DNA of 64,000 nucleotides from Rhodoferax sp. WC2427 (GTDB lineage Bacteria > Pseudomonadota > Gammaproteobacteria > Burkholderiales > Burkholderiaceae_C), in NCBI RefSeq assembly GCF_040822085.1, contig NZ_CP162006.1, positions 1,054,001 to 1,118,000 on the forward strand, read 5' to 3'. Below the pieces are notes generated by a model. The model saw only the letters and a program-made list of their open reading frames with translations, searched no databases and was not told the origin of the DNA. Positions 4,606 through 42,197 of this stretch are shown here, piece after piece (positions within the stretch are counted from its first letter, which is position 1; each line of letters begins with the position of its first letter). A program made the position numbers and the translations under genes.

Positions 4606-5859
4606 TCAGTGCCGCAGGCGCTCCAGTCCCCAACCGTCGATGTCCAGCTCCGGCACGCGGCCTGCCACCAGGTCGGCGGTGGCGCGGGCGCTGCCGCTGG
4701 CCAGTGCCCAGCCGTAGGCGCCGTGCCCCAGGTTCAGCCAGATGCCGGGCCGGCCGCTGGGGCCGATCACCGGGGTGCCGTCGGGCAGGGTGGGGCGGGC
4801 GCCTTTCCAGATCTGCACATTGCTGGCGAGCTGGGCCGCGCCGGGGAACCAGTCGTACAGCACCTGGTACAGGCGGGCGATGGCGGCTGGGTTTTTGGCA
4901 TCGGCGCGGCTGCCCATGTCAAATCCGCCCGCCACGCGCACGCGCTGGCCCATGCGGGCAATCGAGATCTGGTGCTGGCCGTCGACCACCGCGCTGACCG
5001 GGGCGTTCAGGGGTTCGCGGATGGCGGCCGACAGCGAGTAGCCGTACACCGCCGCCAGCGGAATCTGCACGCCTAGCGGCCGCAGCAGCGCAGCCGAGGC
5101 CAGCCCGGCGCAGACCACCACCGCGTCAAAGCGGCGCGGCGTGGCCTCGTTTGCTATGGAAACGGTAGCTGCTGGCGCAGGTTCGATGTGCGCTACCGTG
5201 CGATTGAACTCAAATTGCACGCCAAGCTGCTGGGCTTCCGCCTTGAGCAGCATGGTGAACTGGCGGCAGTTGCCCACGGCATCGCCGGGCAGGTGGATGG
5301 CGGCGGCTAGGGGGGTGTCGGCGTTCAGGGCGGGTTCGTGCAGGCGGGCGGCCGGGGCATCGAGCTGTTGCCAGGCCACACCCGCCTCGCGCAGCCATTG
5401 CAGACCGGGCTGGGCCTGGTCCCGTTCTTTGGCGGTGCGCAGCAGCAGCAGGCTGCCCTCGATGCGGTCGTAGTCCAGATGCAGGTGGTGGGTCAGGGCT
5501 TGCAGGCGTTCGGCACTGTATCCGGCCAGGCGGTGCAGCCGGGCGCGGTGGTCTAGGTAGACGGCGGGTTGCTGGGCACTGCGGCATTTCCACAGCCAGG
5601 CCAGTTCGTTACCCGTCAGGCCCCAGCCCAGTTGGACGGGCGCGTTTCGGCTGAACAGACCCTGCAGCACGCTGCCGACCAGGCCGGGCGGGGCACTGGG
5701 CAAGGCGGTGCCCAGGGTGAGCAGGCCCGCACTGGCAAAGCTGGCCTCCTCGGCGGCGGCGCTGTGGCGCTCAAATACGGTGACCTGGTGGCCGTCGGCG
5801 GCCAACTCGTATGCGGTGCTGACGCCCACCACCCCCGCGCCAATCACGGCGACCTTCAT
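4606..5859 (-). CDS. DadA-like FAD-dependent D-amino-acid dehydrogenase
   Basis: DAO/DadA-family flavoprotein of 417 residues. It starts with the FAD-binding beta-alpha-beta motif IGAGVVGVSTAYELA (residues 6-20) and ends with the second FAD-contacting segment LNLGHGAYGWALASGSA typical of D-amino-acid dehydrogenases. Such enzymes oxidise D-amino acids to 2-oxo acids and ammonia and pass electrons to the respiratory chain. It is probably co-transcribed with nnr 23 bp downstream. Residues 228-236 (A-P-A-A-T-V-S-I-A) come from a copy of the dispersed repeat. DadA itself is the closest match I can name, but a paralogue with another amino-acid preference is possible, so no symbol is given. Confidence 0.88.
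   Translation of the reverse strand: MKVAVIGAGVVGVSTAYELAADGHQVTVFERHSAAAEEASFASAGLLTLGTALPSAPPGLVGSVLQGLFSRNAPVQLGWGLTGNELAWLWKCRSAQQPAVYLDHRARLHRLAGYSAERLQALTHHLHLDYDRIEGSLLLLRTAKERDQAQPGLQWLREAGVAWQQLDAPAARLHEPALNADTPLAAAIHLPGDAVGNCRQFTMLLKAEAQQLGVQFEFNRTVAHIEPAPAATVSIANEATPRRFDAVVVCAGLASAALLRPLGVQIPLAAVYGYSLSAAIREPLNAPVSAVVDGQHQISIARMGQRVRVAGGFDMGSRADAKNPAAIARLYQVLYDWFPGAAQLASNVQIWKGARPTLPDGTPVIGPSGRPGIWLNLGHGAYGWALASGSARATADLVAGRVPELDIDGWGLERLRH
5150..5200 (-). repeat. Dispersed palindromic repeat copy 2, in-frame inside the DadA-like gene
   Basis: Contains the terminal hairpin GCTA-tggaaacgg-TAGC and the core TAGCTGCTGGCGC. On the coding strand, 5178-5152 reads GCG CCA GCA GCT ACC GTT then TCC ATA GCA, giving A-P-A-A-T-V-S-I-A. 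The frame and orientation are the same as in dxr, lpxB and metG. Confidence 0.72.
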
Positions 5860-5904
5860 GCGGCAAACACCCGCATCTTCTCAAACAACATGCAAACCTT
5901 AGAT

Positions 5905-5967
5905 TTATAGAAAAAATGCTGCTTGCGCTTATTGGATAAGCGTAAGCAGCTATTAAAACTGTAGTGT
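5905..5967 (+). repeat. Dispersed palindromic repeat copy 3, intergenic, near-perfect palindrome
   Basis: Arms at 5918-5932 (GCTGCTTGCGCTTAT) and 5936-5950 pair over 15 bp with one mismatch around the loop TGG. The nonapeptide frame at 5940-5966 reads GCG TAA GCA GCT ATT AAA, so a stop replaces the usual CAA codon. It occupies most of the 93-bp gap between the amidase and the DadA-like gene. Confidence 0.85.
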
Positions 5968-7320
5968 AGCCTCGGCGAGCAATGCCAGGTTCAACAGGGT
6001 GTCGTCGTGCAGGGCGGCATGCCACAGCATCAGCCCGACCGGCAGTTCATCGGCGGTGTGGCAGGGCAGGGAGATGGCGCAGCCGTCCAGCATGTTGACC
6101 ACGCTGGGGTTGCGCAGCAGCAGGCCGTTGGTGTGGAAGAAGGCGTCGTCGCGCTCCACGCCGGGGGCCACATTGGCGATGGGTGCGGCCACGGCGGGCA
6201 CCGTGGGCGACAGCACGGCATCAAAGCCCTGCAGGGCGGTTTCCATCTTGGCGATCCAGGCAGTGCGGGCGGCGACCAGCTCGGCATATTCAAAGGCACG
6301 CATTTGCGATCCACGCTCGATACGGGCCAGCACGCGCGGGTCGTAGGCGGCGCGGATGTGCGGGCCGCGGGCCAGCAGCGGACGGTGCCAGATGTAGGCC
6401 TCCACCGCCGAAAAGCCGCCGGTCGCCTGGATGCCGTGCAGCTCGCGCACTTCTTCCAGCGGGATGTCCACCAGGGTTGCGCCCGCGTCGCGCAGGCGCT
6501 GCAGGCTGCGCTCGAAGGCGCGGGCCACCGTGTGGTCCATGCTGTCCAGAAAGCCGCTGCGCGCCACGGCCAGCCGGTAGCTGGAGAGTGGGGCGGCGCT
6601 GCGCGGCACCTGGCGCTGGGCCAGAATTTCATGCGCCAGAACTGCGTCGCGCACGGTCCGGGTCAGGGCGCAGGCCGTGTCCAAGGTGCTGGACAGGGGT
6701 ACCGCACCCGCCGTGGGCACCAGGCGGGCGGTGCTTTTGAAGCCGACGATGCCATTCAGCGCCGCCGGAATACGGATCGAGCCGCCGGTGTCCGAACCCA
6801 GCCCGATGAAGGCCGCCCCGGTGGCCACCGACACCGCCGCGCCGGACGAGGAGCCGCCCGGAATCCGGGGCACCGTGCCGTAGATACGGGCACCGGCTGC
6901 CTGGTCGTAGCGCCCGTCCCAGGCGACCGGGGTGCCGTGGTGCGGGTTCACGCCCACGCCCGAGAAGGCGAACTCCGTCATGTTGGTGCGCCCCAGGATG
7001 CCGCCACCGGCCGCGCGCAACCGGGCCACGGCCGGGCTGTCGGCGGTGGCGGGGGCACGGTCGGCCAGGACCCGCGAGCCTGCGGTGGTCACCTCACCGG
7101 CCACGTCGAACAGGTCTTTGACCGAGATGGCCAGGCCGCCCAGCGGGCTGGCCAGGTTGGCCTGCGCCGCCTGGGATTGGGCGGGGTCGAATCGGGTCTG
7201 CAAAAAGGCATTGCGGCAGGCGGGCGACTGGGCAATGGCGATGGACCGGGCCATCTCTGCCGCCGAAGTGGTGTGCCCGGACTGCAGGGACTGGAGGGTG
7301 GAGGTCAGGTCTGGGCGCAT
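5953..7320 (-). CDS. Amidase signature family protein (AS amidase)
   Basis: Amidase-signature hydrolase of 455 residues. The Ser-cisSer-Lys triad is visible: Lys68 in ISVKDLFDVAG, Ser157 in PGGSSSG and the nucleophile Ser181 in GSDTGGSIRIPA. Family members hydrolyse amides such as allophanate, aryl amides or Glu-tRNA(Gln) intermediates. The absence of gatB/gatC neighbours and the lone position favour a general amidase over GatA. I chose the start at 7320 (MRPDLTSTL). The frame is open far upstream, but that is antisense to rpsB and has no amidase similarity. The 3' end runs into the tail of the intergenic repeat copy. Substrate unknown. Confidence 0.88.
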   Translation of the reverse strand: MRPDLTSTLQSLQSGHTTSAAEMARSIAIAQSPACRNAFLQTRFDPAQSQAAQANLASPLGGLAISVKDLFDVAGEVTTAGSRVLADRAPATADSPAVARLRAAGGGILGRTNMTEFAFSGVGVNPHHGTPVAWDGRYDQAAGARIYGTVPRIPGGSSSGAAVSVATGAAFIGLGSDTGGSIRIPAALNGIVGFKSTARLVPTAGAVPLSSTLDTACALTRTVRDAVLAHEILAQRQVPRSAAPLSSYRLAVARSGFLDSMDHTVARAFERSLQRLRDAGATLVDIPLEEVRELHGIQATGGFSAVEAYIWHRPLLARGPHIRAAYDPRVLARIERGSQMRAFEYAELVAARTAWIAKMETALQGFDAVLSPTVPAVAAPIANVAPGVERDDAFFHTNGLLLRNPSVVNMLDGCAISLPCHTADELPVGLMLWHAALHDDTLLNLALLAEATLQF

Positions 7321-7497
7321 GCGGGTAGGAGGGAGTGTGCTAGACTCCTTGGGTTTTGCTGATCGGTCAAACTTGTTTTGATTGTTGGTTAAAACAAATC
7401 GCAAACCAGTCCATTCAAGGTGTTGTCCTGTCATATTTTGTATATGAAACAGTGGCAAATCGGGCTGAATTTTAGACGCAACCTTAAGGAAAATACC
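7321..7497. promoter_or_regulatory. Divergent promoter/leader region, amidase | rpsB
   Basis: 177 bp, AT-rich relative to the genes, between the leftward amidase and rightward rpsB. It should hold the start signals of the whole rpsB-tsf cluster. A TAGACT at 7341-7346 resembles a -10 box, but no convincing -35 sits at the right spacing. The last 15 bases include TTAAGGA, the rpsB ribosome binding site. The long leader could host S2 autoregulation as known for some rpsB operons; that is inference only. Confidence 0.4.
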
Positions 7498-8256
7498 ATG
7501 TCCGTCAACATGCGCGAAATGCTCGAAGCCGGTGTCCATTTTGGCCACCAAACCCGTTTCTGGAACCCCAAGATGGCCCCGTTCATCTTCGGTCACCGTA
7601 ACAAGATCCACATCATCAACCTGGAAAAATCGCTGCCGATGTTCCAGGAAGCGGCCAAGTTTGCCAAGCAACTGACCGCCAACCGTGGCACCATTTTGAT
7701 GGTCGGCACCAAGCGCCAGGCCCGCGAAATCGTGGCCGGTGAAGCCGCCCGTGCCGGCGTGCCTTTCGTCGACCAGCGCTGGCTCGGCGGCATGCTGACC
7801 AACTTCAAGACCGTCAAGACCTCGATCAAGCGTCTGAAGGACATGAAGATCCAGCAAGAAGCCGGTCTGGACGCCATGAGCAAGAAAGAACAGCTGATGT
7901 TCGCCCGCGAAATGGTCAAGCTGGAAAAAGACATCGGTGGCATCCAGGATATGGTCACCCTGCCGGACGCCATCTTCGTGATCGACGTGGGCTTCCACAA
8001 GATCGCCATCCTTGAAGCCCGCAAGCTGGGCATCCCGCTGATCGGCGTGGTCGATACCAACCACTCCCCAGAAGGCATCGACTACGTGATCCCTGGCAAC
8101 GACGACTCCTCCAAGGCTGTCGCTCTGTACGCTCGTGGCATCGCCGACGCGATCATCGAAGGCCGCAACAGCGCTGGCAATGACGTGGTCAAGGCCGTAG
8201 CCGCTGCGGAAAGCGCCGACGAATTCGTGGAAGTGAACGAGGCTGCTGCAGCCTAA
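7498..8256 (+). CDS. rpsB: 30S ribosomal protein S2
   Basis: Small-subunit protein S2, 252 residues, with the canonical N-terminus [20 protein letters not shown] and the conserved segments [16 protein letters not shown] and [14 protein letters not shown]. It binds 16S rRNA near the 3' domain and helps recruit S1. The ATG at 7498 follows an AAGGAAA binding site; an upstream in-frame extension to 7420 lacks similarity. It heads the rpsB-tsf pair, with a Rho-independent hairpin between the two genes that probably sets their ratio. Confidence 0.98.
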
Positions 8257-8290
8257 GCGTTCCCCATGGCGCGGCGCACTGCCGCGATCA

Positions 8291-8318
8291 AAGAGGGGCG
8301 CAAGCCCCCTTTTTTTTA
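8291..8318 (+). terminator. Rho-independent terminator/attenuator between rpsB and tsf
   Basis: GGGGC (8295-8299), loop GCAA, GCCCC (8304-8308), then a run of eight T. A short but strong stem with a stable tetraloop. Its place between two co-regulated translation genes suggests partial termination. Confidence 0.85.
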
Positions 8319-8348
8319 CTAATTTAAGACGTTAAGACGGAGAAATAT

Positions 8349-9272
8349 ATGGCTGCAATTACCGCAAGCATGGTCGCTGAACTGCGTGGCAAAACCGACG
8401 CCCCCATGATGGAGTGCAAGAAGGCATTGACCGAAGCCGAAGGCGACATGGGCAAGGCTGAAGAGCTGCTGCGCGTCAAGCTCGGTAGCAAGGCGGGCAA
8501 GGCCGCTTCGCGTATCACCGCCGAAGGCGTGGTCACCAGCTACTTTGACGGCACCACCGGTGCTTTGCTCGAAGTCAATTGCGAAACCGACTTCGTGACC
8601 AAGAACGACAGCTTCCTGGCACTGGCCCAGGGCGCGGTCGAACTGATCGCCAAGAACAACCCTGCCGACGTGGCCGCCCTGAGCGCCCTGGCCTACGCCC
8701 AAGACGGTTTCGGCCCCACCCTGGAAGACGTGCGCAAGGGTCTGATCGGCAAGATCGGCGAAAACATGACGTTCCGCCGCTTCAAGCAGTTCAGCACCGG
8801 CGCCAAGCTGGCCGGCTACCTGCACGGCACGCGCATTGGCGTGGTGGTCGAGTTTGAAGGTGACGACGTGGCTGCCAAAGACGTGGCCATGCACATCGCC
8901 GCCATGAAGCCCGTGGCCCTGTCCAGCGCCGACGTGCCTGCCGACCTGATCGCCAAAGAGCGTTCGGTGGCAACTGCCAAGGCTGCAGAAGACGCTTCGG
9001 TGGCCGTGGCCGCTGGCAAGCCGGTCCAGTCCGACGAAATCGTTGCCAAGCGCATCGAAGGCGGCGTGCAGAAGTACCTGAAGGAAGTCTCCTTGTTCAA
9101 CCAGTCTTTCGTCAAGAACGACAAGCAAACGGTTGAGCAGATGCTCAAGGCCACCGGCACCACCGTGAAAGCATTCACGATGTTTGTGGTGGGCGAAGGC
9201 ATTGAGAAGAAGGTCGACGACTTCGCTGCCGAAGTGGCTGCCCAAGTGGCTGCTGCCAAGGCTACCGCCTGA
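8349..9272 (+). CDS. tsf: Translation elongation factor Ts
   Basis: Guanine nucleotide exchange factor for EF-Tu, 307 residues. The N-terminal UBA-like segment ([20 protein letters not shown]) is followed by the core signature [16 protein letters not shown] and the C-terminal dimerisation part. A GGAGAAATAT binding site precedes the ATG. It follows rpsB across an intergenic terminator, the usual bacterial arrangement. Confidence 0.98.
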
Positions 9273-9345
9273 TTTTTCTGACGCAGTACTGACCTATTTT
9301 GCCCCTACCATTAGCCACTTTTCCACCATTACGAGGACTCTCCCC

Positions 9346-10068
9346 ATGACCCAAGCCCAACCAGCCTACAAGCGCATTTTGCTCAAGCTGTCGGGGGAGG
9401 CGTTGATGGGCGACGACCAGTTCGGCATCAACCGCGACACCATCGTGCGTATGGTGGAGGAGGTTGCCGACATCACCCGTCTGGGTGTGCAGGTGGCGGT
9501 GGTGATCGGTGGCGGCAATATTTTTCGCGGCGTAGCGGGGGGTTCGGTCGGTATGGACCGCGCCACCGCCGACTACATGGGCATGCTGGCCACGGTGATG
9601 AATGCGCTGGCCCTGGCCGATGCCATGAACAAGGCCGGTCTGACCGCCCGCGTCATGTCGGCCATCGCCATCGACCAGGTGGTTGAACCCTATGTGCGCC
9701 CCAAGGCCTTGCAGTACCTGGAAGAGGGCAAGGTGGTGGTGTTTGCGGCCGGTACCGGCAACCCGTTTTTCACCACCGACACGGCTGCGGCCCTGCGCGG
9801 TGCCGAGATCGGTGCCGAGATCGTGCTCAAGGCCACCAAGGTGGACGGTGTCTACACCGCCGACCCCAAGAAAGACCCCAGCGCGACCCGTTACACCACG
9901 CTGACCTTCGACCAGGCGATGTCGCAAAATCTGGGCATCATGGATGCGACCGCCTTTGCGCTGTGCCGCGACCAGAAATTGCCGATCAAGGTGTTCTCGA
10001 TCTTCAAACACGGTGCGCTACAACGCGTGGTGATGGGCGAAGACGAAGGTACCTTGGTCCACGCGTGA
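9346..10068 (+). CDS. pyrH: Uridylate kinase (UMP kinase)
   Basis: Amino-acid-kinase-fold UMP kinase of 240 residues that makes UDP for pyrimidine nucleotide synthesis. Motifs: [14 protein letters not shown] at the N-terminus, [11 protein letters not shown], the acidic site segment [16 protein letters not shown], and the C-terminal [14 protein letters not shown]. The start at 9346 is set by the AGGACTC site and by the family N-terminus; an in-frame upstream opening overlaps tsf and is spurious. It is likely allosterically controlled by GTP and UTP as in other proteobacteria. Confidence 0.98.
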
Positions 10069-10092
10069 GCCGGACTTCCGAGGAGAAACCAC

Positions 10093-10653: not shown

Positions 10654-10667
10654 GCCTGGCTGCGCCG

Positions 10668-11390: not shown

Positions 11391-11399
11391 GTCTTCCCT

Positions 11400-12251: not shown

Positions 12252-12261
12252 GGACGGACGC

Positions 12262-13434
12262 ATGCGACAGGTTTTGACGATTTTGGGTTCCACCGGCTCG
12301 GTAGGGACCAGCACACTCGACGTGGTGTCCCGCCACCCGGACCGGTTTGAAGTATTTGCGCTTACCGCGGCGACCCAGGTGGATTTGATGCTGCAGCAAT
12401 GTGCGCAGTTCAAACCCCGCTTTGCGGTCATGGCCAGCCTGCAGCATGCAGAACTGTTGGCCGAAAAAATTAAGCAAAATAGCATTCCCACGCTTGTTCT
12501 ATCAGCGCAAGCAGCTATTGAAATGGTAGCGTCTCACCCCGAGGTCGATGCGGTCATGGCGGCGATCGTCGGCGCGGCCGGCCTGGCCCCGTGCCTGGCC
12601 GCAGCCCGTGCTGGCAAACGCCTGCTGTTGGCCAACAAAGAGGCGCTGGTGGTGGGCGGCGAGGTGTTTCTGGCGGCCGTGAAGCAAGGCGGCGCCTTGC
12701 TGCTGCCGATTGACAGCGAGCATTCGGCTGTGTTCCAGTCGCTGCCCGAAGATCCGGCGGTCTGGCCCCGGCGCATCGAGAAAATTATGCTGACTTCGTC
12801 GGGCGGCCCGTTCCGCACCCGCGATCCCGCAACGCTGCGCGACGTGACCCCCGAGCAGGCCTGCGCCCACCCGAACTTCGCCATGGGCCGCAAGATTTCG
12901 GTGGATTCGGCCACCATGATGAACAAGGCGCTGGAGGTGATCGAGGCCAAATACCTGTTTGGCGTGACGCCCGAGCAGATCGAGGTGGTGATCCATCCGC
13001 AGCAAATCATCCATTCGATGGTGCAGTTCCACGATGCCTCGGTGATGGCCCAGCTGGGCACACCGGACATGCGGGTGCCGATTGCCTATGGCCTGTCCTG
13101 GCCCGAGCGCATCGAGAGTGGCACGGCGCGGTTGGACTTTTCCAAAATGGCGGCCATGACGTTCGAGGTGCCGGATTTCCAGCGCTTTCCCTGCCTGCAA
13201 CTGGCCTGGGAAAGCCTGCGTGCCCCGTCGGGCACCTGCGCGGTGCTGAATGCGGCCAACGAGGTGGCAGTGGCCGCCTTTTTGGACCGGCGCATCCGCT
13301 TTGACCAGATCCATGCGATCAATCTTGCAACTTTGGCGGCGGTAAGCCCCTCCAAGCCCCAGACGCTGGAAGATTTGCTGGCGTTGGACGCGGAATCCCG
13401 CGCTGTTGCGCAGCAGGCCCTACCCTGTCTGTAG
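12262..13434 (+). CDS. dxr: 1-deoxy-D-xylulose 5-phosphate reductoisomerase
   Basis: Second step of the MEP isoprenoid pathway (DXP to MEP, NADPH-dependent), 390 residues. The NADPH motif GSTGSVGTSTLDV is at residues 9-21, LLLANKEALVVGG in the middle, IDSEHSAVFQ and the catalytic segment KISVDSATMMNKALEVIEA follow. Residues 82-90 (A-Q-A-A-I-E-M-V-A) and the AT-rich stretch before them derive from a dispersed repeat copy. They lie in the NADPH-binding domain ahead of the conserved VDAVMAAIVGAAGL, so the insertion is evidently tolerated. Placed between cdsA and rseP as in other betaproteobacteria. Confidence 0.98.
   Translation: MRQVLTILGSTGSVGTSTLDVVSRHPDRFEVFALTAATQVDLMLQQCAQFKPRFAVMASLQHAELLAEKIKQNSIPTLVLSAQAAIEMVASHPEVDAVMAAIVGAAGLAPCLAAARAGKRLLLANKEALVVGGEVFLAAVKQGGALLLPIDSEHSAVFQSLPEDPAVWPRRIEKIMLTSSGGPFRTRDPATLRDVTPEQACAHPNFAMGRKISVDSATMMNKALEVIEAKYLFGVTPEQIEVVIHPQQIIHSMVQFHDASVMAQLGTPDMRVPIAYGLSWPERIESGTARLDFSKMAAMTFEVPDFQRFPCLQLAWESLRAPSGTCAVLNAANEVAVAAFLDRRIRFDQIHAINLATLAAVSPSKPQTLEDLLALDAESRAVAQQALPCL
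12472..12531 (+). repeat. Dispersed palindromic repeat copy 4, in-frame inside dxr
   Basis: Core CTATCAGCGCAAGCAGCTA with the terminal hairpin GCTA-ttgaaatgg-TAGC ending at 12530. The frame at 12505-12531 reads GCG CAA GCA GCT ATT GAA then ATG GTA GCG, i.e. A-Q-A-A-I-E-M-V-A. The block is clearly AT-richer than the flanking dxr sequence. Confidence 0.85.
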
Positions 13435-17694: not shown

Positions 17695-17714
17695 ACCCAC
17701 CAGAGGACTCCAGC

Positions 17715-19952: not shown

Positions 19953-21110
19953 ATGTCCGATCCCCGCGTCGCCATGGTGGCCGGAGAGGCCTCTGGCGAC
20001 TTGCTCGCAGGCCTGGTGCTGGACGGCCTGCGGGCCCGCTGGCCCGACCTGCAATCCAGTGGCATTGGCGGGCCGCAGATGGCCCGGCGCGGCTTCCAGG
20101 CGCAGTGGCCCAGCGAGCGGCTGGCGGTGCACGGCTACAACATGGACGTGTTTCGCCGCCTGGCCGAGCTGCTGCGTATCCGCAAACAGCTGCGTGAGCG
20201 CCTGCTGCGCGAGCGGCCCGGCGTGTTCATCGGCGTGGATGCGCCCGACTTCAACCTGGGGCTGGAAACGGCACTGAAAGCCGCTGGCATCCCCACCGTG
20301 CACTTCGTCTGCCCGTCGATCTGGGCCTGGCGCGCCGACCGGGTGGACAAAATCCGCCGCGCCGCCGACCACGTGCTGTGCATTTTTCCGTTCGAGCCCG
20401 ATCTGCTGGCCCAGCACGGCATTGCCGCCACCTACGTGGGCCATCCACTGGCCAATGTGATCCCCCTGCAGCCCGACCGCGCCGCCGCGCGGCAGAAGCT
20501 GGGGCTGGCCCCCGAAGACACCGTGGTCGCCATCCTGCCCGGCAGCCGCCAGTCGGAAATCAAATACCTGGCTTTAAGGTTCTTTCAGGCTGCAGCGCTT
20601 ATTCTGGAAGCGCAACCAGCTATAAAATTTGTAGTACCCGCGGTGCCTACGCTGCGCACGCAAATTGAAGCCCTGGCCACCGAGGCGGGCATGGCCGGGC
20701 GCATCCAGATGGTTGCGGGCCAGTCGCATACCGTGCTGGCCGCCTGCGACCTGACCCTGATTGCCAGCGGCACGGCCACGCTGGAGGCCGCGCTGTTCAA
20801 GCGGCCCATGGTGATTGCCTACAACATGCACTGGTTTTCGTGGCGCATGATGCAGCGCAAGCAGCTCCAGCCCTGGGTGGGCCTGCCCAATATTTTGTGC
20901 CGCGACTTCGTGGTGCCCGAGCTGCTGCAGGACGCGGCCACGCCCCAGGCCCTGGCCGATGCCTGCCTGCAGTGGCTGGCGCCGTCCGCCTCTGCGAGAA
21001 TCGCGGCCCTTGAAGCCACATTCACCGCGCTGCACCACAGCCTGCAGCGCGATACTGCCCAGTTAGCCACCGATGCCATCCAAAAAATTATCGCCACCCG
21101 TGCAAGCTGA
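19953..21110 (+). CDS. lpxB: Lipid-A-disaccharide synthase
   Basis: GT19 glycosyltransferase joining lipid X and UDP-diacylglucosamine; 385 residues. [15 protein letters not shown] at the N-terminus and [31 protein letters not shown] and [20 protein letters not shown] are diagnostic. Residues 220-228 (A-Q-P-A-I-K-F-V-V) are encoded by a dispersed repeat just after the GSRQSEI motif. It starts 2 bp after lpxA and overlaps rnhB by 38 bp. Confidence 0.97.
20582..20637 (+). repeat. Dispersed palindromic repeat copy 5, in-frame inside lpxB
   Basis: Left end TTTCAGGCTGCAGCGCTTAT, core GAAGCGCAACCAGCTA, tail GCTA-taaaatt-tgTAG. The frame at 20610-20636 reads GCG CAA CCA GCT ATA AAA then [18 protein letters not shown]. 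The block contrasts with the GC-rich gene around it. Confidence 0.82.
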
Positions 21111-21717
21111 GTTGACCTGGCCCACCCGGGGCCTGGTGGCCGGGGTGGACGAGGCCGGGCGCGGCCCGCTGGCCGGGCCGGTGGTAGCCGCCGCCGTGAT
21201 CCTGGACGAACGCCAGCCGATTGCCGGCCTGGCCGACTCCAAGAAGCTCACCGCCAAGCGCCGCGCCCAGCTGTACGACGAAATCCTGGCCAAAGCCCTG
21301 TGCTGCTCGATCGCCGAGGCCAGCGTGGAAGAAATCGAAACACTCAACATCCTGCAGGCCACCATGCTGGCCATGCAGCGGGCAGTGCTTGGCCTGCGGC
21401 TCAAGCCCGGCCACGTGCTGGTGGACGGCAACCGTGTGCCGGTGCTGGCCATGACCAGCGAGGCCATCGTCCAAGGCGATGCCCTGGTGCCCGCGATATC
21501 GGCCGCGTCCATCCTGGCCAAGGTCACCCGCGACCGCTGGTGTGCCCAGGTGGATGCCGACTATCCGCAGTACGGGTTTAAAGGGCACAAGGGCTATGGC
21601 ACGGCCGCGCACCTGGCGGCGCTGCAGGCGCACGGGGCCTGCCCCTTGCACCGCAGGACGTTTGCTCCCGTCACCCAGGTGATGGCACGTATGGCTTTGA
21701 CGGCGGTGCTGGCATGA
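21073..21717 (+). CDS. rnhB: Ribonuclease HII
   Basis: Removes ribonucleotides from DNA and RNA primers; 214 residues. The active-site motif [19 protein letters not shown] carries the first Asp-Glu pair; [14 protein letters not shown] and LVDGNRVP follow. The ATG at 21073 overlaps lpxB by 38 bp. A later TTG at 21112 is possible, but the longer start fits family length. Confidence 0.95.
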
Positions 21718-22487
21718 GCTCGGACCCCATCACCCACCTCCAGTCGCGCGACAACCCACTGCTCAAGGAACTGCGCCGCCTGTCGCAAGACAGCACCGCC
21801 TACCGCAAACAAGGCCGTGTGTGGCTGGAGGGCGACCACCTGTGCCGCGCCGCGCTGGCCCGGGGCTGGAAACCGGCCATGGCGATTTTTTCAGAGTCTT
21901 TTTGGCCTCTAGCGCCCGTGGAATGGGCGAGAGCAGCTACGAAAGTAATAGTAATCAAGGATGCTTTGTTTGCCGACCTGAGCAGCCTGGAATCACCCGC
22001 CCAGATGGGTTTTGTGGTCGATTTGCCGAGCACCGCCGCGCTGGACCCGGCCGCCGCCAGCGTCATCCTCGACCGGGTGCAGGATGCCGGCAACGTGGGC
22101 TCCATCCTGCGCAGCGCCGGGGCTTTCGGTTTCCAGCAGATCATCGCCCTCAAGGGCACGGCGGCGCTGTGGAGCCCCAAGGTGCTGCGCGCGGGCATGG
22201 GCGCGCATTTCGGCCTGCGCCTGGTCGAGGGCGTGGAGCCCGAGGCGCTGGAGGCCCTGACCGTGCCGCTGGTCGTCACCAGCTCCCACCAGGGCGCGCT
22301 GCTGCAAGACCAGACGTTGCCATACCCCTGCGCCTGGGCCATGGGCCACGAAGGGCAGGGCGTGGGCCCGGCCCTGCTGGCGCGCGCCACCGTGTCGGTG
22401 CGCATCGGCCAGCCGGGGGGGGAAGAGTCGCTGAACGTGGCCGCAGCGGCGGCGATTTGCCTGCACGCGTCCTCTGTGGGGCGCTGA
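21714..22487 (+). CDS. TrmH/SpoU-family RNA methyltransferase
   Basis: 257-residue SPOUT methyltransferase. An N-terminal substrate-binding half ([33 protein letters not shown]) is followed by the knotted catalytic domain with [34 protein letters not shown] and [17 protein letters not shown]. It methylates a ribose in rRNA or tRNA; the target is not evident. Residues 72-80 (A-R-A-A-T-K-V-I-V) are repeat-derived and lie between the two domains. ATGA overlap with rnhB. Confidence 0.92.
21884..21955 (+). repeat. Dispersed palindromic repeat copy 6, in-frame inside the TrmH-like gene
   Basis: Carries the left segment TTTTTTCAGAGTCTTTTTGG, the alternative core CGTGGAATGGGCGAGAGC and AGCTAC. The frame at 21927-21953 reads GCG AGA GCA GCT ACG AAA then [18 protein letters not shown]. 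The GGAATGGGCG core is shared with the intergenic copies near 35.5 and 57.6 kb. Confidence 0.8.
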
Positions 22488-27596: not shown

Positions 27597-28010
27597 ATGC
27601 GCCAACGCCTGCCCGTGCTCTTGGCCGCCCTCTGGTGGGGCAGCCTGAGCACGCTGGGCTTCATGGTGGTGCCGATGCTGTTTGCGGTGCTGCCCACCCC
27701 GGCCATGGCCGGTGGCATGGCGGCCAAGCTGTTCACGGCGCAGACCTGGCTGTCCATGGCCTGCACGCTGATTCTGTTGATGTTTTCCAGGTCAAAACAG
27801 GGTCTTGTGCCGATAGCACAAGCGCAGGCAGCTACTATTTTTGTAGCATTTGGATTCTTGGCTGCGGTGTTGGTGGAATTTGCCATCTCGCCGCACATCG
27901 TGGCGCGGGAGAACTTGAAACTGTGGCACGGCCTGGGCAGTGCCTTGTACTTGCTGCAATGGCTAGCAGCGGGCGCGACACTGTGGAAAGTGTCGGCCCA
28001 ACGCGCCTAG
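27597..28010 (+). CDS. Small membrane protein, DUF4149-like
   Basis: 137 residues with about four hydrophobic segments (LLAALWWGSLSTLGFMVVPM, WLSMACTLILLMF, ATIFVAFGFLAAVLVEFAI, ALYLLQWLAAGATLW). It resembles the DUF4149 family often found beside yhbY/greA in betaproteobacteria. Function unknown. Residues 76-84 (A-Q-A-A-T-I-F-V-A) come from a dispersed repeat copy and run into the third hydrophobic segment. Its stop lies 1 bp from the convergent yhbY stop. Confidence 0.8.
   Translation: MRQRLPVLLAALWWGSLSTLGFMVVPMLFAVLPTPAMAGGMAAKLFTAQTWLSMACTLILLMFSRSKQGLVPIAQAQAATIFVAFGFLAAVLVEFAISPHIVARENLKLWHGLGSALYLLQWLAAGATLWKVSAQRA
27784..27850 (+). repeat. Dispersed palindromic repeat copy 7, in-frame inside the DUF4149-like gene
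   Basis: Perfect 7-bp stem CTTGTGC (27804-27810) / GCACAAG (27816-27822), then GCGCAGGCAGCTAC and the terminal hairpin GCTAC-tattttt-GTAGC (27831-27847). The frame at 27822-27848 reads GCG CAG GCA GCT ACT ATT then TTT GTA GCA: A-Q-A-A-T-I-F-V-A. Confidence 0.87.
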
Positions 28011-31265: not shown

Positions 31266-31280
31266 ATTGCAGTGATCTCG

Positions 31281-31312
31281 ACAACGGGGCCTTTTGGGGC
31301 CCCGTTTCCGTT
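31281..31312 (+). terminator. Rho-independent terminator after ftsH
   Basis: AACGGGGCC (31283-31291) pairs with GGCCCCGTT (31298-31306) around a 6-nt loop, followed by the interrupted T tract TTTCCGTTTT. It separates ftsH from folP, although folP starts only 20 bp later, so readthrough is plausible. Confidence 0.8.
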
Positions 31313-31332
31313 TTCCACCATTTCGCAACCCC

Positions 31333-32190
31333 ATGCTCTGGCAAACCACCCGCTTTCGTATCGACCTGGCCCAGCCCCAGGTGATGGGCATCGTCAATGC
31401 CACCCCCGACTCCTTTTCCGACGGCGGGCGGCACGCCAGCACCGCGGCGGCCCTGGCGCACTGCGAGCAGTTGCTGCGCGACGGTGCCCACATCCTGGAC
31501 ATCGGCGCGGAATCCACCCGCCCCGGTGCCCAGCCGGTGCCGGTGGAGGAAGAACTGGCCCGTCTGCTGCCCGTGCTGCGGGCCGCCACCACGCTGGGCG
31601 TGCCGATTTCGGTGGACACCTACAAGCCCCAGGTCATGCGGGCCGCGCTGGACGCCGGAGCAGACATCCTCAACGACATCTGGGCCCTGCGCTGGACCGA
31701 CCCGGCCCATCCGCTGGCCGCCACGGACGTCGTGGCGCAGCACCCGTCGTGCGGCGTGTGCCTGATGCACATGCACCGCGAGCCGCAAACCATGCAGGCC
31801 GAGCCCATGCAAGGCGACGTGGTGGCACAGGTGCTATTATTTTTAGAGCGGAATGTGCAGGCCCTATCAGCGCAAGGCATAGAAAAGACCCGCATCGTCC
31901 TGGACCCGGGCGTTGGCTTTGGCAAAACCGTGGCCCAAAACTTTGCCTTGTTGGCACGGCAGCAGGCGTTCCTGGCCCTGGGTTACCCGCTGCTGGTGGG
32001 GTGGTCGCGCAAATCATCGCTGGCGGGCATGGGCTCTATGCCCGGTTTGCCCCTGGGCCCTACCGAGCGCCTGGTGCCCAGCGTGGCTGCGGCCTTGTTG
32101 GCCGTGGAGCGGGGCGCACGCATCGTGCGGGTCCATGACGTGGCCGCAACCGCGCAAGCCCTCAAGGTGTGGGCTGCGGCGGGCGGGTAA
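31333..32190 (+). CDS. folP: Dihydropteroate synthase
   Basis: Condenses p-aminobenzoate with dihydropterin diphosphate in folate synthesis; target of sulfonamides. 285 residues with VMGIVNATPDSFSDGG, DIGAESTRPGAQPV and ILDPGVGFGKT-like (IVLDPGVGFGKT) and the C-terminal RIVRVHDVAAT. The ATG at 31333 is chosen because the upstream in-frame TTG lies inside the terminator stem. Residues from 180 (A-Q-G-I-E-K) contain a shortened repeat signature. Followed by glmM as in most proteobacteria. Confidence 0.97.
   Translation: MLWQTTRFRIDLAQPQVMGIVNATPDSFSDGGRHASTAAALAHCEQLLRDGAHILDIGAESTRPGAQPVPVEEELARLLPVLRAATTLGVPISVDTYKPQVMRAALDAGADILNDIWALRWTDPAHPLAATDVVAQHPSCGVCLMHMHREPQTMQAEPMQGDVVAQVLLFLERNVQALSAQGIEKTRIVLDPGVGFGKTVAQNFALLARQQAFLALGYPLLVGWSRKSSLAGMGSMPGLPLGPTERLVPSVAAALLAVERGARIVRVHDVAATAQALKVWAAAGG
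31833..31888 (+). repeat. Degenerate dispersed repeat copy 8, in-frame inside folP
   Basis: Shares CTATCAGCGCAAG exactly with the dxr copy (13 bp) and reads L-S-A-Q-G-I-E-K in the same frame, one residue shorter than the usual nonapeptide. GCTATTATTTTTAGAGC at 31833-31849 resembles the terminal hairpin in the opposite order. AT-rich against its surroundings, but the family signal is weaker. Confidence 0.55.
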
Positions 32191-35455: not shown

Positions 35456-35460
35456 TGCGG

Positions 35461-35526
35461 TTGCTATAAATTAAATAGCTTGTCGTGCTGATGGAATGGG
35501 CGCTAACTGCCAATTTGGCTACTTAT
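35461..35526 (-). repeat. Dispersed palindromic repeat copy 9, between DUF3460 gene and scpA
   Basis: Terminal hairpin GCTATaaattaAATAGC, then GTGCTGATGGAATGGGCG, an 18-bp core shared exactly with the copy after fdsD. On the minus strand 35488-35462 reads A-R-Q-A-I-stop-F-I-A. The TAA closes the frame just upstream of scpA. Confidence 0.8.
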
Positions 35527-35729: not shown

Positions 35730-35774
35730 AGACTGGACCTTTGGTTTGGCTTGATTTTACGGGGGCAGCAAGCG

Positions 35775-37183: not shown

Positions 37184-37281
37184 TCTTGAATCATAAGCAA
37201 GTATCTTGTGCCGATATAGCGCTTTTTCTGCAAAGGTAAGTCACCCAGAATCCAGGCTTCTGTGACTATTTGAGGTGCTTT
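37184..37281. promoter_or_regulatory. LysR/MFS divergent control region
   Basis: 98 bp between the divergent genes. CTTGAATCATAAGCAAG (37185-37201) is an interrupted dyad right next to the LysR start, compatible with autoregulation. TCTTGTGCCGATA (37204-37216) is also found in the repeat inside the DUF4149-like gene, perhaps a chance match or a decayed repeat. GAGG before the MFS ATG is its binding site. Confidence 0.4.
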
Positions 37282-38469
37282 ATGCCACTTGCCTTGCTTG
37301 CGCTGACCATCAGCGCCTTTGCCATCGGCACGACCGAGTTCGTGATCGTCGGCCTGATTCCCACTATGGCCGCCGACCTGGGGGTCAGCATTCCTTCCGC
37401 GGGCCTGCTGGTCAGCCTGTACGCGCTGGGCGTGGCCGTCGGCGCGCCGGTACTGACGGCAATGACCGGCAAAGTGCCGCGCAAGATGCTGCTGCTGGGC
37501 CTGATGCTGCTGTTCACCATCGGCAACCTGGTGGCCTGGCAGGCCCCGGGCTACACCGCGCTGGTGGTGGCGCGGGTGCTGACGGGCCTGGCCCACGGCG
37601 TGTTCTTTTCGATCGGCTCCACCATCGCCACCAGCCTGGTGCCCAAGGACAAAGCCGCCAGCGCGATTGCAACCATGTTCTCGGGCCTCACTGTGGCCCT
37701 GGTCACTGGCGTGCCGTTGGGCACCTTCATCGGTCAGCACTTTGGCTGGCGTGCCACATTTTTGGCGGTGGCCGCGCTGGGTGTGGTGGCGATGCTGATC
37801 AGCCTGGTCTTCATACCGTCCACTCTGAAGCACAGCAAGCCCGCCAGCGTGCTGCAGCAGCTGCAGGTGCTTCAACAGCCGCGCCTGCTGCTGGTCTACG
37901 CCATGACGGCGGTGGGCTATGGCGGCTCGTTTATCGCCTTTACCTATCTGGCACCCATCCTGCAGGAGCTGTCGGGCTTTGGCACCACTGCGGTCAGCGC
38001 GGTGCTGATGGTCTACGGCGTATCGGTGGCGTTTGGCAACATCTGGGGTGGCCAACTGGCCGACCGGCGCGGCCCGATCAGCGCCTTGAAAATCCTGTTC
38101 CTGGGCCTGGCCGCCGTGCTGTTCGTGCTGTCGCTCACCGCCTCCAGCCCCTGGTTGGCCGTGGCCACCGTGCTGGTGTGGGGCGCATTTGCCTTTGGCA
38201 ATGTGCCGGGCTTGCAGGTCTATGTGGTGCAGCAAGCCCAGCGGGTTGCGCCGCACGCGGTAGACGTGGCCTCGGGCCTGAACATCGCGGCCTTCAACCT
38301 GGGCATTGCCGGGGGCGCCTGGGGCGGCGGCTGGGTCGTGACCCACCTGGGCCTGGCCCATACCCCCTGGATTGGCGGCCTGGTGGTGCTGGGGGCCGTG
38401 GCCCTGACGGCCTGGAGCGGCAGCCTGGACCGGGCCCGCACTCAGAGCGCAGCCGCTGCGCTGGTCTGA
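37282..38469 (+). CDS. MFS transporter, AraJ/sugar-efflux type
   Basis: 395-residue 12-helix major facilitator. Typical of the DHA1 AraJ/YdhP-like group: ALTISAFAIGTTEFVIVGLI at the N-terminus, GLLVSLYALGVAVGAPVLTA and the motif ADRRGPISALK between helices. It probably exports a small hydrophilic compound or drug. The ATG at 37282 has GAGG 6 bp upstream. Likely controlled by the divergent LysR gene. Its last 28 bp overlap the 3' end of the convergent SulP gene. Confidence 0.9.
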   Translation: MPLALLALTISAFAIGTTEFVIVGLIPTMAADLGVSIPSAGLLVSLYALGVAVGAPVLTAMTGKVPRKMLLLGLMLLFTIGNLVAWQAPGYTALVVARVLTGLAHGVFFSIGSTIATSLVPKDKAASAIATMFSGLTVALVTGVPLGTFIGQHFGWRATFLAVAALGVVAMLISLVFIPSTLKHSKPASVLQQLQVLQQPRLLLVYAMTAVGYGGSFIAFTYLAPILQELSGFGTTAVSAVLMVYGVSVAFGNIWGGQLADRRGPISALKILFLGLAAVLFVLSLTASSPWLAVATVLVWGAFAFGNVPGLQVYVVQQAQRVAPHAVDVASGLNIAAFNLGIAGGAWGGGWVVTHLGLAHTPWIGGLVVLGAVALTAWSGSLDRARTQSAAAALV

Positions 38470-40094
38470 AAGTCTTTGAGCCGGCCCGCAAAGCCCGAGC
38501 GCTCCATCAGCGCCCGGGGCTGGTCGTTCAGGTCGTTGATGTAGAGCTGGCCGCCCCGGTGCACGATGGCTTTGAACAGCTGTTCCAGCGCGTCCAGCCC
38601 GCTGGCATCCAGCGAAATCAGCTGGGACGCGTCCAGCACCACGCGGGTGCCGTGGTGGCGGCTTTCCACGGCCTGCACGATGGGGTCGATCTTGGCCACC
38701 GCCCCGAAGAACAGCGCGCCGTACAGCTTGTAGACCAGCGCGCCATCGCCCTCGGCCACTGCGTCCACATGGAACAGCGTGCTCATGCGGCGGATGAAGA
38801 AAGCGCAGGCCAGCAGCATGCCCACCTCCACCGCCACCGTCAGGTCGAACACCACGGTGAGGAAGAACGTGCCCAGCAACAGCATGCGGTAGTGGTTGCT
38901 GAACTGCCGCAGGCGCACAAACTCATGCCATTCGCCCATGTTCCAGGCCACAAACAGCAAGATGCCCGCCAGCACCGCCAGCGGGATGTACAGCGCCAGC
39001 GGCGCGGCCACCAGCACCACGGCGGCCAGCACCACGGCGTGCACGATGCCGGCGATGGGAGAGGTGGCCCCGGAGCGGATATTGGTCACGGTGCGGGCAA
39101 TCGTGCCGGTGGCGGGCATGCCGCCAAAGAAGGCCACGGTGAAGTTGGCCAGACCTTGCGCCATCAGCTCCTGGTTGGGGTCGTGCTTCGTGTGGTGCGG
39201 GTCGCTGGCGAGCTGGTCGGCCACGCGGGCGCAGAGCAGCGACTCCACCGCGCCCAGCAGGGCGATGGTCAGCGTGGGCGTGACCAGCAGGCGCACCGTG
39301 TCCCAGCTGAAGGCGGGCAGTTCGAACGCGGGCAGGCCGCTGGGGATGCTGCCAAACCGGGTGCCCAGCGTTTCCACCGGCAGGTCCAGGGCCCAGGCCA
39401 GCAGCGACAGCGTGACCAGCGCCACGATGGGGCCCGGCACCCGTGCAAAGGTGCGCACCGAGCGGCCCTCCAGCAGGCGGATCAGCGGCGAGCCCTGCAC
39501 AAACACCTTGGGCCACACAAACAGCCCTAGCACGCACATTGCCCCCAGCGCCAGGGCAAAGAAATTCAGCGTGTGGATGTGCCCGGCAATGGCTTTGATC
39601 TGCGAAAAGAAGTCGCCCGGCATCTTGGCGATCTCCAGCCCCAGCAGGTCTTTCACCTGCGACAACCCGATCAGCACCGCGATGCCGTTGGTAAAGCCAA
39701 TGACGATGCTCACCGGCACGTAGCGCACCAGCGTGCCCAGCTTGAACAGGCCCAGCGCAAACAGCAGCACGCCTGCGCAGGCGGTAGAAATCAGCAGGTT
39801 TGCCACGCCGTAGCGCTCGACAATGCCGTAGACGATGACGATGAAGGCCCCCGCCGGGCCGCCGATCTGTGCCGTGGTGCCGCCCAGCGCCGAAATGATG
39901 CAGCCGGCGATGATGGCCGTCCACAGCCCAGCCTCGGGCTTGAGGCCGCTGGCAATCGCAAACGCCATGGCCAGCGGCAGGGCGACGATGCCCACCGTGA
40001 GCCCGGAGCCCACATCCTTGCCCAACCTCTCCCGGTTGTAGCCCTGCAATGCATCAAGCAGGCGGGGGTGGAAGCGGGCGAGGGGCGAGGTCAT
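38442..40094 (-). CDS. SulP-family inorganic anion transporter
   Basis: 550 residues. An N-terminal hydrophobic core of 10-14 helices (VGIVALPLAMAFAIASGLKP is the conserved SulP entry segment; FFGGMPATGTIARTVTNIRSG the second signature) is followed by a C-terminal STAS domain (VVLDASQLISLDASGLDALE). SulP carriers move sulfate, bicarbonate or dicarboxylates; no carbonic anhydrase lies alongside to point to bicarbonate. It starts 24 bp after metG on the same strand. Confidence 0.93.
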   Translation of the reverse strand: MTSPLARFHPRLLDALQGYNRERLGKDVGSGLTVGIVALPLAMAFAIASGLKPEAGLWTAIIAGCIISALGGTTAQIGGPAGAFIVIVYGIVERYGVANLLISTACAGVLLFALGLFKLGTLVRYVPVSIVIGFTNGIAVLIGLSQVKDLLGLEIAKMPGDFFSQIKAIAGHIHTLNFFALALGAMCVLGLFVWPKVFVQGSPLIRLLEGRSVRTFARVPGPIVALVTLSLLAWALDLPVETLGTRFGSIPSGLPAFELPAFSWDTVRLLVTPTLTIALLGAVESLLCARVADQLASDPHHTKHDPNQELMAQGLANFTVAFFGGMPATGTIARTVTNIRSGATSPIAGIVHAVVLAAVVLVAAPLALYIPLAVLAGILLFVAWNMGEWHEFVRLRQFSNHYRMLLLGTFFLTVVFDLTVAVEVGMLLACAFFIRRMSTLFHVDAVAEGDGALVYKLYGALFFGAVAKIDPIVQAVESRHHGTRVVLDASQLISLDASGLDALEQLFKAIVHRGGQLYINDLNDQPRALMERSGFAGRLKDFQTSAAAAL

Positions 40095-40118
40095 GGCATG
40101 GGCATGGCGTAGAGGTCG

Positions 40119-42197
40119 TTAGCCGATGCGCATACCGGGTTGCGCGCCGGGGAAGGGCTCCAGCACGTAGATGCCCGGCTGGGCCTTTTCGTCGGCGTGG
40201 CTGGCGGCCAGCACCATGCCTTCGCTGAGGCCGAATTTCATCTTGCGCGGGGCGAGGTTGGCCACCATGACGGTGAGTTTGCCTATGAGTTGGTCTGGCT
40301 GGTAGTGTGCTGCGATACCGCTGAACACGTTACGGGTCGAACCCTCGCCCACGTCCAGCGTCAGGCGCAGCAGCTTGGTGGAGCCGTCCACCGCTTCGCA
40401 GTTCAGGATCTTGGCGATGCGCAGGTCGATCTTGGCGAAGTCGTCGATGGCGATGACGGGCGCAATCGCCTCACCGCCGGGCACTACAGTTTCTGTAGCT
40501 GCTTGCGCTGATTCTGCGGGCGCTGGGGGCTCAAACAATGCATCCAATTGCTTGACGTCCACGCGCTGCATCAGGTGCTTGTAGTCGCCAATGGTGTGGC
40601 CCGCGCCCAGCAGGGCGTCGGCGTCGGCAAAGCACAGGGGGGCGACGTTCAAAAACGCTTCCACCTGGGCCGCCAGCGCGGGCAGCACGGGCTTGAGGTA
40701 GATGGTCAGCAGGCGGAAGGCTTCGATGCAGGTGCTGCACACGTCTTGTAGGCGCGCGTCGGCACCTTCTAGCTTGGCCAGTTCCCAGGGCTTGTTGGCA
40801 TCCACGTAGGCATTCACGCGGTCGGTGAGCAACATGGTTTCGCGCAGGGCCTTGGCGTATTCGCGCTGCTCGTACAAACTGGAAATGCTCTCTTTTTGAG
40901 AGCTTATTGCGCTTATCAGATCAGCGCTGGAGGCCGATAAGGCACTTAACTTGCCAGCAAAGCGCTTGGCCAGAAAACCAGCGGCCCGGCTGGCGATGTT
41001 TACGTACTTGCCGATCAGGTCGCTGTTCACCCGGGCCATGAAGTCGTCGGCGTTGAAGTCGATGTCTTCGTTGCGGGCAGACAGCTTGGCGGCGATGTAG
41101 TAGCGCAGCCACTCGGGGTTCATGCCCAGGCCCAGGTATTTGAGCGGGTCCAGGCCGGTGCCGCGGCTCTTGCTCATCTTTTCGCCGTTGTTCACGGTCA
41201 AAAAGCCGTGCACAAAGATCGAATCCGGCGTCTTGCGGCCGCTGAACTTCAGCATCGCGGGCCAAAACAGGGTGTGGAAGGTGACGATGTCCTTGCCGAT
41301 GAAGTGGTACTGCTCCAGCGCAGGGTTGGCCATGTAGGCCTCGAAGTCTTCGCCGCGTTTGTCGAGCAGGTTTTTCAGCGATGCCAGGTAGCCCACGGGC
41401 GCGTCCAGCCACACATAGAAGTATTTGCCGGGCGCGTCAGGGATCTCGATGCCGAAGTAGGGCGCGTCGCGGCTGATGTCCCAGTCGCCCAGGCCTTCAC
41501 TGGTGCTGCCGTCCGGGTTGGTGCGCACGGTGAACCATTCCTTGACCTTGTTGGCCACCTCGGGCTGCAGGCGGCCGTCTTGCGTCCAGCCCTCCAAAAA
41601 CTCCACGCAGCGCGGGTCGGACAGCTGGAAGAACAGGTGCTCCGAGCTCTTCAGTTCGGGCGTGGCACCGGACAGGGTCGAGGTGGGATTGATCAGGTCG
41701 GTAGGCGCGTAGACCGAGCCGCAGACCTCGCAGTTGTCGCCGTACTGGTCCTTGGCATGGCACTTGGGGCACTCGCCCTTGATGAAGCGGTCCGGCAGGA
41801 ACATGTTCTTGGCGGGGTCGAAGAACTGCTCGATCACCTTGCTGGAGATCAGGCCGTTGGCCTTCAGGTCGCGGTAGATCTGTTGCGCCAGCGCGTGGTT
41901 TTCCGGCGCGTCGGTGCTGTGCCAGTTGTCGAAGGCAATGTGGAAGCCGTCCAGATACGGCTTGCGCCCGGCGGCGATGTTGGCCACGAACTGCTGGGGC
42001 GTGACGCCGGCCTTTTCAGCCGCAATCATGATGGGCGCGCCGTGCGTGTCGTCGGCCCCGACAAAGTTCACATGGTTGCCCTGCATGCGTTGGTGCCGCA
42101 CCCAGATGTCGGCCTGGATGTACTCCATGATGTGGCCGATGTGGAAATTGCCATTGGCGTAGGGCAGGGCGGTGGTGACGAAGAGTTGGCGTGGCAT
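40119..42197 (-). CDS. metG: Methionyl-tRNA synthetase
   Basis: 692 residues. Class I catalytic core with the HIGH motif ([20 protein letters not shown]), a zinc knuckle with four cysteines (CPKC...CEVC), the KMSKS loop ([11 protein letters not shown]), an anticodon-binding helical domain and a C-terminal EMAP II-like tRNA-binding domain ([17 protein letters not shown]). Two repeat copies are inserted: residues 564-572 (A-Q-A-A-T-E-T-V-V) in the linker before the C-terminal domain, and around residues 418-437 between the core and the anticodon domain. Both lie in inter-domain positions. Confidence 0.98.
40480..40535 (-). repeat. Dispersed palindromic repeat copy 10, in-frame inside metG (linker)
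   Basis: CTACAG-ttt-CTGTAG terminal hairpin and TAGCTGCTTGCGCTGATTC core. The minus strand 40508-40482 reads GCG CAA GCA GCT ACA GAA then [18 protein letters not shown]. Confidence 0.86.
40886..40945 (-). repeat. Dispersed palindromic repeat copy 11, second copy inside metG
   Basis: Terminal hairpin GCTCTC-ttttt-GAGAGC (40887-40903), then TTATTGCGCTTATCAGATCAGCGC. The nonapeptide frame would contain a TAA (A-Q-stop-A-L-K-K-R-A). metG reads the element in a different frame, giving [12 protein letters not shown], which avoids the stop. Confidence 0.8.

Follow-up and report, generated by a model that had tools for sequence, protein, structure and literature searches.

A DNA repeat of approximately 64 bp is dispersed between and within the genes of Rhodoferax sp. 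WC2427, and was studied here starting from a stretch of 64,000 nucleotides of its chromosome (NZ_CP162006.1, positions 1,054,001 to 1,118,000; this whole stretch is called the window below). The repeat is probably an ancient, chromosome-borne, sequence-specific recognition site in double-stranded DNA, subject to purifying selection and served by a putative trans-acting reader that varies between lineages. According to this model, purifying selection on the DNA would keep the site both between genes and within genes; in genes, the site would dictate some of the amino acids and impose codons that are AT-rich and rare elsewhere, and after loss of the reader these codons would drift back to the GC-rich norm. 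Because codons and residues would be forced by the site, unrelated proteins would display the same short peptide. Three lines of evidence, namely, shared positions of the copies, constraint on synonymous positions, and the all-or-none fate of the sites, point to a recognition site with a trans-acting reader. We infer that a protein reads the site, that the site serves the cell (our first guess is chromosome organization), and that the copies in genes arose through substitution or through replacement at equal length, and not by insertion.

The unit was delineated using a weight matrix that was seeded with 12 copies from the window, six of them in genes, and then iterated; the copies in the DadA-like and FolP genes and the second copy in MetG were outside of the seed set. 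In 864 kb, comprising the window and 400 kb of contiguous genome on each side, this matrix detected 202 copies of an imperfect-palindromic element, compared to a single match in the reversed sequence (both strands, same cut-off). A separate 200 kb at 3.2-3.4 Mb of the chromosome contained 40 copies, and extrapolation of the copy density in the two stretches gives approximately 950-1,100 copies in the 4.78 Mb chromosome. The consensus derived from a 50-copy alignment is AATTTAnAnnAAATAnGCCTCTnGCGCTTATTCCATnAGCGTAAGCAGCTATTAAATnnGTAGCAAn, and its layout is an AT tract, a GC-rich imperfect dyad around GCGCTTATTCCATNAGCG that makes up the central ~33 bp, AGCTAY, another AT tract, and RTAGCA; in the outer AT tracts, A runs and T runs are often interchanged. 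The columns that are conserved within genes are largely those that are conserved between genes. In an analysis of k-mer over-representation, the element heads the lists for 864 kb, with the top-ranked exact 12-mer present in 24 copies; it was not singled out in the window and in the grouped loci, probably owing to homologous genes. We found no clear excess of isolated arms over the two-strand control. At scores above 12, 5 of the 226 right-arm matches and 16 of the 293 left-arm matches lay outside of known copies, versus 7 and 12 in the control, and at the lax cut-off of 8 the left arm showed a small excess (67 versus 46); the half-site as the real unit, an idea suggested by uptake words, was rejected on these grounds.

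The shared peptides correspond to the right-hand part of this longer DNA unit. A preliminary description of the window had noticed that six unrelated proteins share a nonapeptide encoded by a repeat, with codons that look uncommon in the surrounding high-GC genes. Translation confirmed the six peptides at the residues given and their origin from the same DNA unit in one frame, and the shared codons in unrelated folds do stem from a DNA repeat, not from protein convergence. The use of a single frame and orientation holds for these six copies, as compared to three other coding copies in the window that differ. Over the 864 kb, the same element lies wholly within genes in 50 of the 202 cases, and 26 of these 50 are in the frame and orientation of the peptides (hereafter, the peptide frame), with 12, 8, 3, and 1 in the others; the number expected in the peptide frame, calculated from the stop-free frames of 124 intergenic copies, is 4.2 of 50 (chi-square p ~1e-26). 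The preference is strong, yet it is no rule, and probably reflects the fact that the peptide frame gives a tolerable, alanine-rich peptide. The G+C content of third codon positions (GC3) is 0.42 in the element codons versus 0.83 for the remaining codons of those genes, and several codons are enriched over their genome frequency (ATA 29-fold, TCA 18-fold, GCT 10-fold, GCA and GTA 6-fold each), so that the codons are indeed unusual for this genome. In a synonymous-shuffle test, all 47 coding copies tested (of the 50) scored above all 2000 shuffles; it should be noted that this test is partly circular because the copies were selected by score.

We compared the host genes in related genomes using the best 80 of 582 loci by LpxB similarity, nearly all of them from Comamonadaceae by title or tree; these loci span the region from Dxr to DUF4149 as far as the contigs reach, and were scored with the matrix trained on the Rhodoferax sp. 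WC2427 genome. Of the 150 copies found in them, 139 sit at the same four codon positions, across genera. The preliminary description had proposed a mobile coding element inserted into proteins, to be checked by alignment with orthologues lacking it. This proposal found no support at most of the sites tested: among loci scoring below -20, a gap at the site was observed in 0 of 33 for Dxr, 0 of 21 for LpxB, 0 of 24 for TrmH, and 5 of 17 for DUF4149 (loci with scores from -20 to 25, namely, 10, 22, 15, and 12, respectively, were excluded). Thus, no residues are added at Dxr, LpxB, or TrmH, and the exceptions are the MetG linker and the copy at 4001-4064. The element-free loci use GC-rich synonyms in the same codons (GC3 0.76-0.85). 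For example, the Dxr site reads GCGCAAGATGCTATTGAAATGATAGCATCACAT in one Polaromonas and GCGCCCGACGCGCTGGAGATGATTGCCTCGCAC in another. The best solved homologues, LpxB 5w8n and Dxr 1k5h, which we take to be the E. coli proteins, align across the element site without gaps.

The DadA site scored above 14 in 8 of 14 element-rich genomes and in none of the 15 others, 11 of which have no gap there (29 of 30 loci were used; L232 was excluded). The MetG comparison is based on the 30 of 60 genomes that had a readable locus among the best matches. The linker site scored above 14 in 9 of 12 element-rich genomes and in 0 of 18 others; the second MetG site did so in 3 of 30 (G000, G002, and the half-decayed G050), and 25 of 30 have no gap there. 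The element-poor genome G067 (L175) keeps CAAAAAGAGAGC of the right arm of this second site, at codons ~434-438, which is likely to be a fossil. At shorter distances, only copies with both flanks found were compared, that is, 68 of the 202 with G007 and 24 of the 202 with G004, each from 400 kb. Of the copies that could be compared, G007 retains all 22 in genes and 42 of the 43 between genes, indicating stability over short times; one coding copy there adjoins a 1.1 kb length difference. In G004, which belongs to the same genus, 9 of 13 coding copies are present and four are absent, with length differences of -39, 0, 0, and +12; in this comparison, intergenic copies turn over more than gene copies.

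Constraint on the DNA is evident from synonymous positions. We calculated codon identity at identical residues, defining element-bearing loci by a score above 25 and element-free loci by a score below -20, and excluding pairs more than 88% identical. In element-bearing loci, it was 0.67-0.69 inside of the element compared to 0.46-0.54 outside, in all four genes, whereas in loci below -20 the value inside (0.43-0.52) was not above that outside (0.47-0.55). In intergenic copies compared between G000 and G007, high-information columns were 0.917 identical and low-information columns 0.719, with a correlation of 0.72. This comparison used only pairs in which both genomes have the copy, which introduces a slight bias in its favor; only 1 of 43 intergenic copies was lost for absence.

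The presence of the sites is strongly correlated. When the four sites were scored in 47 loci, 19 loci had none and 18 had all four, compared to 2.7 and 3.2 expected under independence. On a tree of 81 rows (a quick tree without bootstraps, with the element columns excluded), presence at one or more sites changes at least 15 times, with 49 rows having the element and 32 lacking it; it is absent from nine Hydrogenophaga, three Paracidovorax, the Comamonas koreensis group, and Brachymonas. That lineages tend to keep or lose the sites together suggests one trans-acting reader. Among 150 genomes of the family, 36 have at least 12 matches (24 of them at least 34), 13 have 1-5 matches, and 101 have none; at most 34 matches per genome were scored in this count, and its strict filters lose weak matches. 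Two groups look as if the element were decaying: three Delftia (L029, L032, and L061) have a faint LpxB site only, with scores of 13-15, and two Polaromonas (L017 and L019) have TrmH scores of 0 and 7, values intermediate between genera with and without the element. It should be noted that the record L012 (NZ_CACSJA010000011.1) bears the title Pantoea sp. 18069 but falls within Comamonadaceae in the protein tree, so that its name or sample looks wrong.

Using 737 genes predicted in the 864 kb by a simple codon-model caller, which seems to under-call low-GC regions, we classified 140 copies as intergenic, 12 as partly coding, and 50 as wholly coding. Convergent genes flank 47 of the 140 intergenic copies and divergent genes 14, as compared to 51 and 94, respectively, of 381 background gaps longer than 60 bp. 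The median distance from a copy to a gene 3' end is 6 nt (155 ends within 300 nt). The two strands carry 103 and 99 copies. Regular spacing, suggested by the copies in the window, was rejected because spacing over the 864 kb is random (coefficient of variation 0.95 versus 0.99 for random placement). Low-GC 10-kb blocks are poorer in copies, with a mean of 1.00 (n = 10) versus 2.53 (n = 76; p 0.0016), and the G+C content is below 0.59 in three of the six longest gaps between copies. Copy-free stretches of 18-34 kb are located outside of the window at window coordinates -400000..-366193 (cut by the edge of the sequence read), -252635..-226985, and 361513..379588; their G+C content is 0.47-0.58 compared to 0.63 overall, and they are possibly acquired islands. 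The consensus matched none of 50,697 phage records and 1 of 72,556 plasmids, the latter from a member of Comamonadaceae, in searches with a single consensus query that misses diverged copies. One metagenomic viral contig (L202) contains an exact 19-mer of the element core.

Pairing between the palindromic columns of the element is only slightly above that in shuffles. Folding is nevertheless better in intergenic copies than after column shuffling (mean -16.85 versus -15.05 kcal/mol, z -6.2), and coding copies show no extra folding over column shuffles (z -1.4). A hairpin as the selected feature is, in terms of this slight covariation and the folding scores, weakly supported between genes and unsupported in genes. 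In our reading, the element acts as double-stranded DNA, with a minor additional role as a hairpin where it lies near stop codons.

Several observations weigh against a recognition site under selection and with a dedicated reader. Compared to G007, intergenic copies are no better conserved than their surroundings (0.820 versus 0.834 overall identity), and the same is true of coding copies (0.897 versus 0.903); only the column pattern differs. The extra folding of intergenic copies means that part of the intergenic conservation may be due to a hairpin. Only 3 of 10 comparable intergenic copies are present in G004, which has 32 copies in 400 kb. The sites in Dxr and DadA and the second site in MetG are missing in several element-rich genomes, and are thus not universal. 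Two coding sites differ in length between lineages, fitting insertion or deletion: the MetG linker is shorter by at least five residues in 11 of 18 element-poor genomes, and 39 nt are absent from G004 at 4001-4064. In the 864 kb, 18 positions outside of the copies scored above 0, compared to 18 and 11 in controls. The lack of half-built sites is hard to reconcile with gradual building by point mutation, and such building was rejected, there being no excess of intermediate sites between copies and background; this absence argues for replacement at equal length or a burst in the distant past. The loss of a drive, rather than of a reader, could also account for the joint loss. No reader was found in the two families tested, a Y1 transposase and ComP_DUS: the former is present in 113 of 150 genomes and the latter in 144 of 150, compared to 49 of 150 for the element, and neither tracks it. 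Accordingly, the Y1 transposase as the cognate enzyme and ComP as the reader were both rejected.

The length differences in MetG and at 4001-4064 are what would be expected of an ancient mobile palindromic element that entered genes in the distant past, with the peptides as remnants of the inserts. In Rickettsia, palindromic elements of this kind occur in frame in unrelated genes and add residues to the host protein. The discrete unit without intermediates, its imperfect palindrome, and the variation of intergenic copies within the genus (G004) are compatible with this origin, and the in-frame occurrence in unrelated genes is shared with the Rickettsia elements. The difference is that most of the tested sites add no residues: all clearly element-free Dxr, LpxB, and TrmH loci are gap-free, as are 12 of 17 for DUF4149 and the majority for DadA, and so are the solved LpxB and Dxr. 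Identical codon sites across genera, conserved codon choice within the unit, and the near absence of presence/absence differences from G007 also speak against insertion, which we regard as distinctly improbable. A hairpin family of the REP/REPIN kind, with a RAYT-type Y1 transposase to serve it, is still harder to accept, and we consider it very improbable. REP/REPIN sequences are imperfect palindromes at gene 3' ends, and the present element resembles them in its position near stop codons and between convergent genes, and in the better folding of its intergenic copies; in addition, a copy is found at the end of the sole Y1 transposase gene. This gene, G000:C1:719515-719841, lies upstream of an apparent glutamate synthase gene; the copy at its end overlaps or adjoins the stop codon, and in the other direction 3.7 kb separate the gene from the nearest copy. 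Thus, only one side of the gene has a copy close by, rather than both being flanked by repeats, and the Y1 family does not track the element; moreover, the element-rich genomes G105 and G146 have no Y1 among the matches listed. Pairing is at best weakly maintained and is undetectable in genes.

A DNA uptake signal for natural transformation, held in place by a drive of biased uptake and recombination, is unlikely, albeit less so than the preceding two possibilities. DNA uptake sequences (DUS/USS) are, like the element, abundant chromosomal words in and outside of genes, with a frame preference and inverted pairs at gene ends; a codon imprint and a strongly preferred frame, both found here, are reported for them (PMC2346458). 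The placement of the copies at 3' ends and between convergent genes, the weak intergenic hairpin, and the poverty of low-GC DNA in copies also fit such a signal. According to PMC4212676, natural transformation occurs in Acidovorax temperans and A. facilis, and DNA of another Acidovorax species gave no detectable transformation in any Acidovorax tested; A. facilis DSM 649 (L011) has all four sites. Against this, uptake words are short (~9-12 bp) and of high copy number as single words, whereas the element is one ~64 bp unit with no clear excess of half-sites and no intermediate sites. The near ubiquity of ComP_DUS does not discriminate, and Verminephrobacter eiseniae is described as competent in PMC4212676, while no copy is present in the 10 kb locus (L067) of V. 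aporrectodeae, a related species. For the putative reader of the recognition site, we rank a role as a chromosome-structuring protein first and uptake specificity second. The broader proposal is that Comamonadaceae possess a chromosome-wide recognition system, with a ~64 bp site present approximately 1000 times per genome where it occurs and a putative, lineage-variable binding protein, and with codons and amino acids overwritten at shared positions in LpxB, Dxr, TrmH, and MetG and kept across genera; on this our opinion is almost evenly divided.

The core of the element has apparently been seen before. Table 7 of a 2017 motif survey (PMC5217627) gives GCTTAT(N)5AAGCG in Acidovorax ebreus TPSY as a potential novel motif, with 114 copies, of which 107 are intergenic, 5 in genes, and 2 overlapping; 44 are in convergent, 4 in divergent, and 59 in co-oriented positions. 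The segment GCTTAT-TCCAT-AAGCG of our consensus fits this pattern, and both are mostly intergenic and rich in convergent positions. By the published pattern alone, then, the sequence and the excess between convergent genes agree, and we take the two to be the same family, with the core motif already in print (PMC5217627). The motif is reported there as a short spaced pair, and neither a 64 bp unit nor a codon imprint, gene sites in common, or their joint loss figure in its description. The same survey lists ATAGCT(N)22CAAAAG of Polaromonas naphthalenivorans CJ2, which, as our guess, may belong to the same family. The beta-proteobacterial repeat element (BRE) is likewise a repeat of beta-proteobacteria with some copies in coding sequence, but its description in PMC3110155 (69% G+C, 75-91 bp, often tandem, up to 29 copies) sets it apart from the AT-flanked, dispersed, and randomly spaced element. 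The exact string GCGCTTATTCCAT had no match in the literature searched, which had most subscription journals outside of its scope, and that literature yielded no account of the conservation of gene sites across genera, of the codon imprint, or of the joint loss.

If the proposed reading is correct, core enzymes here offer a clear example of codons, and some residues, being set over long evolution by a DNA site and not by the protein. Because sister lineages have repeatedly lost the sites together, the putative reader should be findable by comparison of proteomes, and, if it organizes the chromosome or filters incoming DNA, it would open that biology in Comamonadaceae, a family for which our searches yielded no description of such a site or its reader. 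The results also serve as a warning that peptides common to unrelated proteins can be shadows of DNA signals.

The window itself contains 15 copies of the element, nine of them within genes, and no matches to Rfam families at the gathering score. The names of the host genes were confirmed by domain for DAO, the SpoU methylase, DUF4149, and the pterin-binding FolP, while LpxB, Dxr, and MetG match solved structures bearing those names. Six copies are in the peptide frame: Dxr (12468..12531, plus strand; gene 12262-13434; score 65), where 27 of 68 related loci score above 14; LpxB (20573..20636, plus; gene 19953-21110; score 55), with 45 of 80 loci above this value; the SpoU/TrmH-like methylase (21890..21953, plus; gene 21714-22487; score 59), with 43 of 80; DUF4149 (27785..27848, plus; gene 27597-28010; score 62), with 24 of 48; the DadA-like DAO protein (5152..5215, minus; gene 4606-5859; score 47); and the MetG linker (40482..40545, minus; gene 40119-42197; score 45). 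The second MetG copy (40886..40949, minus; score 64) is in another frame, and the copy at 4001..4064 (plus; score 61) has the opposite orientation within a minus-strand gene (3104-4582) with YjeF_N and Carb_kinase domains. The preliminary description had also pointed to AQGIE in FolP. This peptide is present in the frame 31333-32190, not in the open reading frame 31272-32138, but derives from a weak copy in the opposite orientation (31832..31895, minus; score 30), so that its resemblance to the nonapeptide is a different matter; among the 150 copies detected in the 80 related loci, none maps to this site.

The six remaining copies lie between genes. One of them (5903..5966, plus; score 82) is located between genes 4606-5859 and 5953-7320 and overlaps the end of the latter. 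Another (57106..57169, minus; score 53), assigned to the intergenic class, overlaps the end of gene 56882-57118. Three more are found at 35462..35525 (minus; score 70), 49184..49247 (minus; score 65), and 57616..57679 (plus; score 48), and the last one (63829..63892, minus; score 75) is situated between the convergent genes 61297-63828 and 63899-65080.

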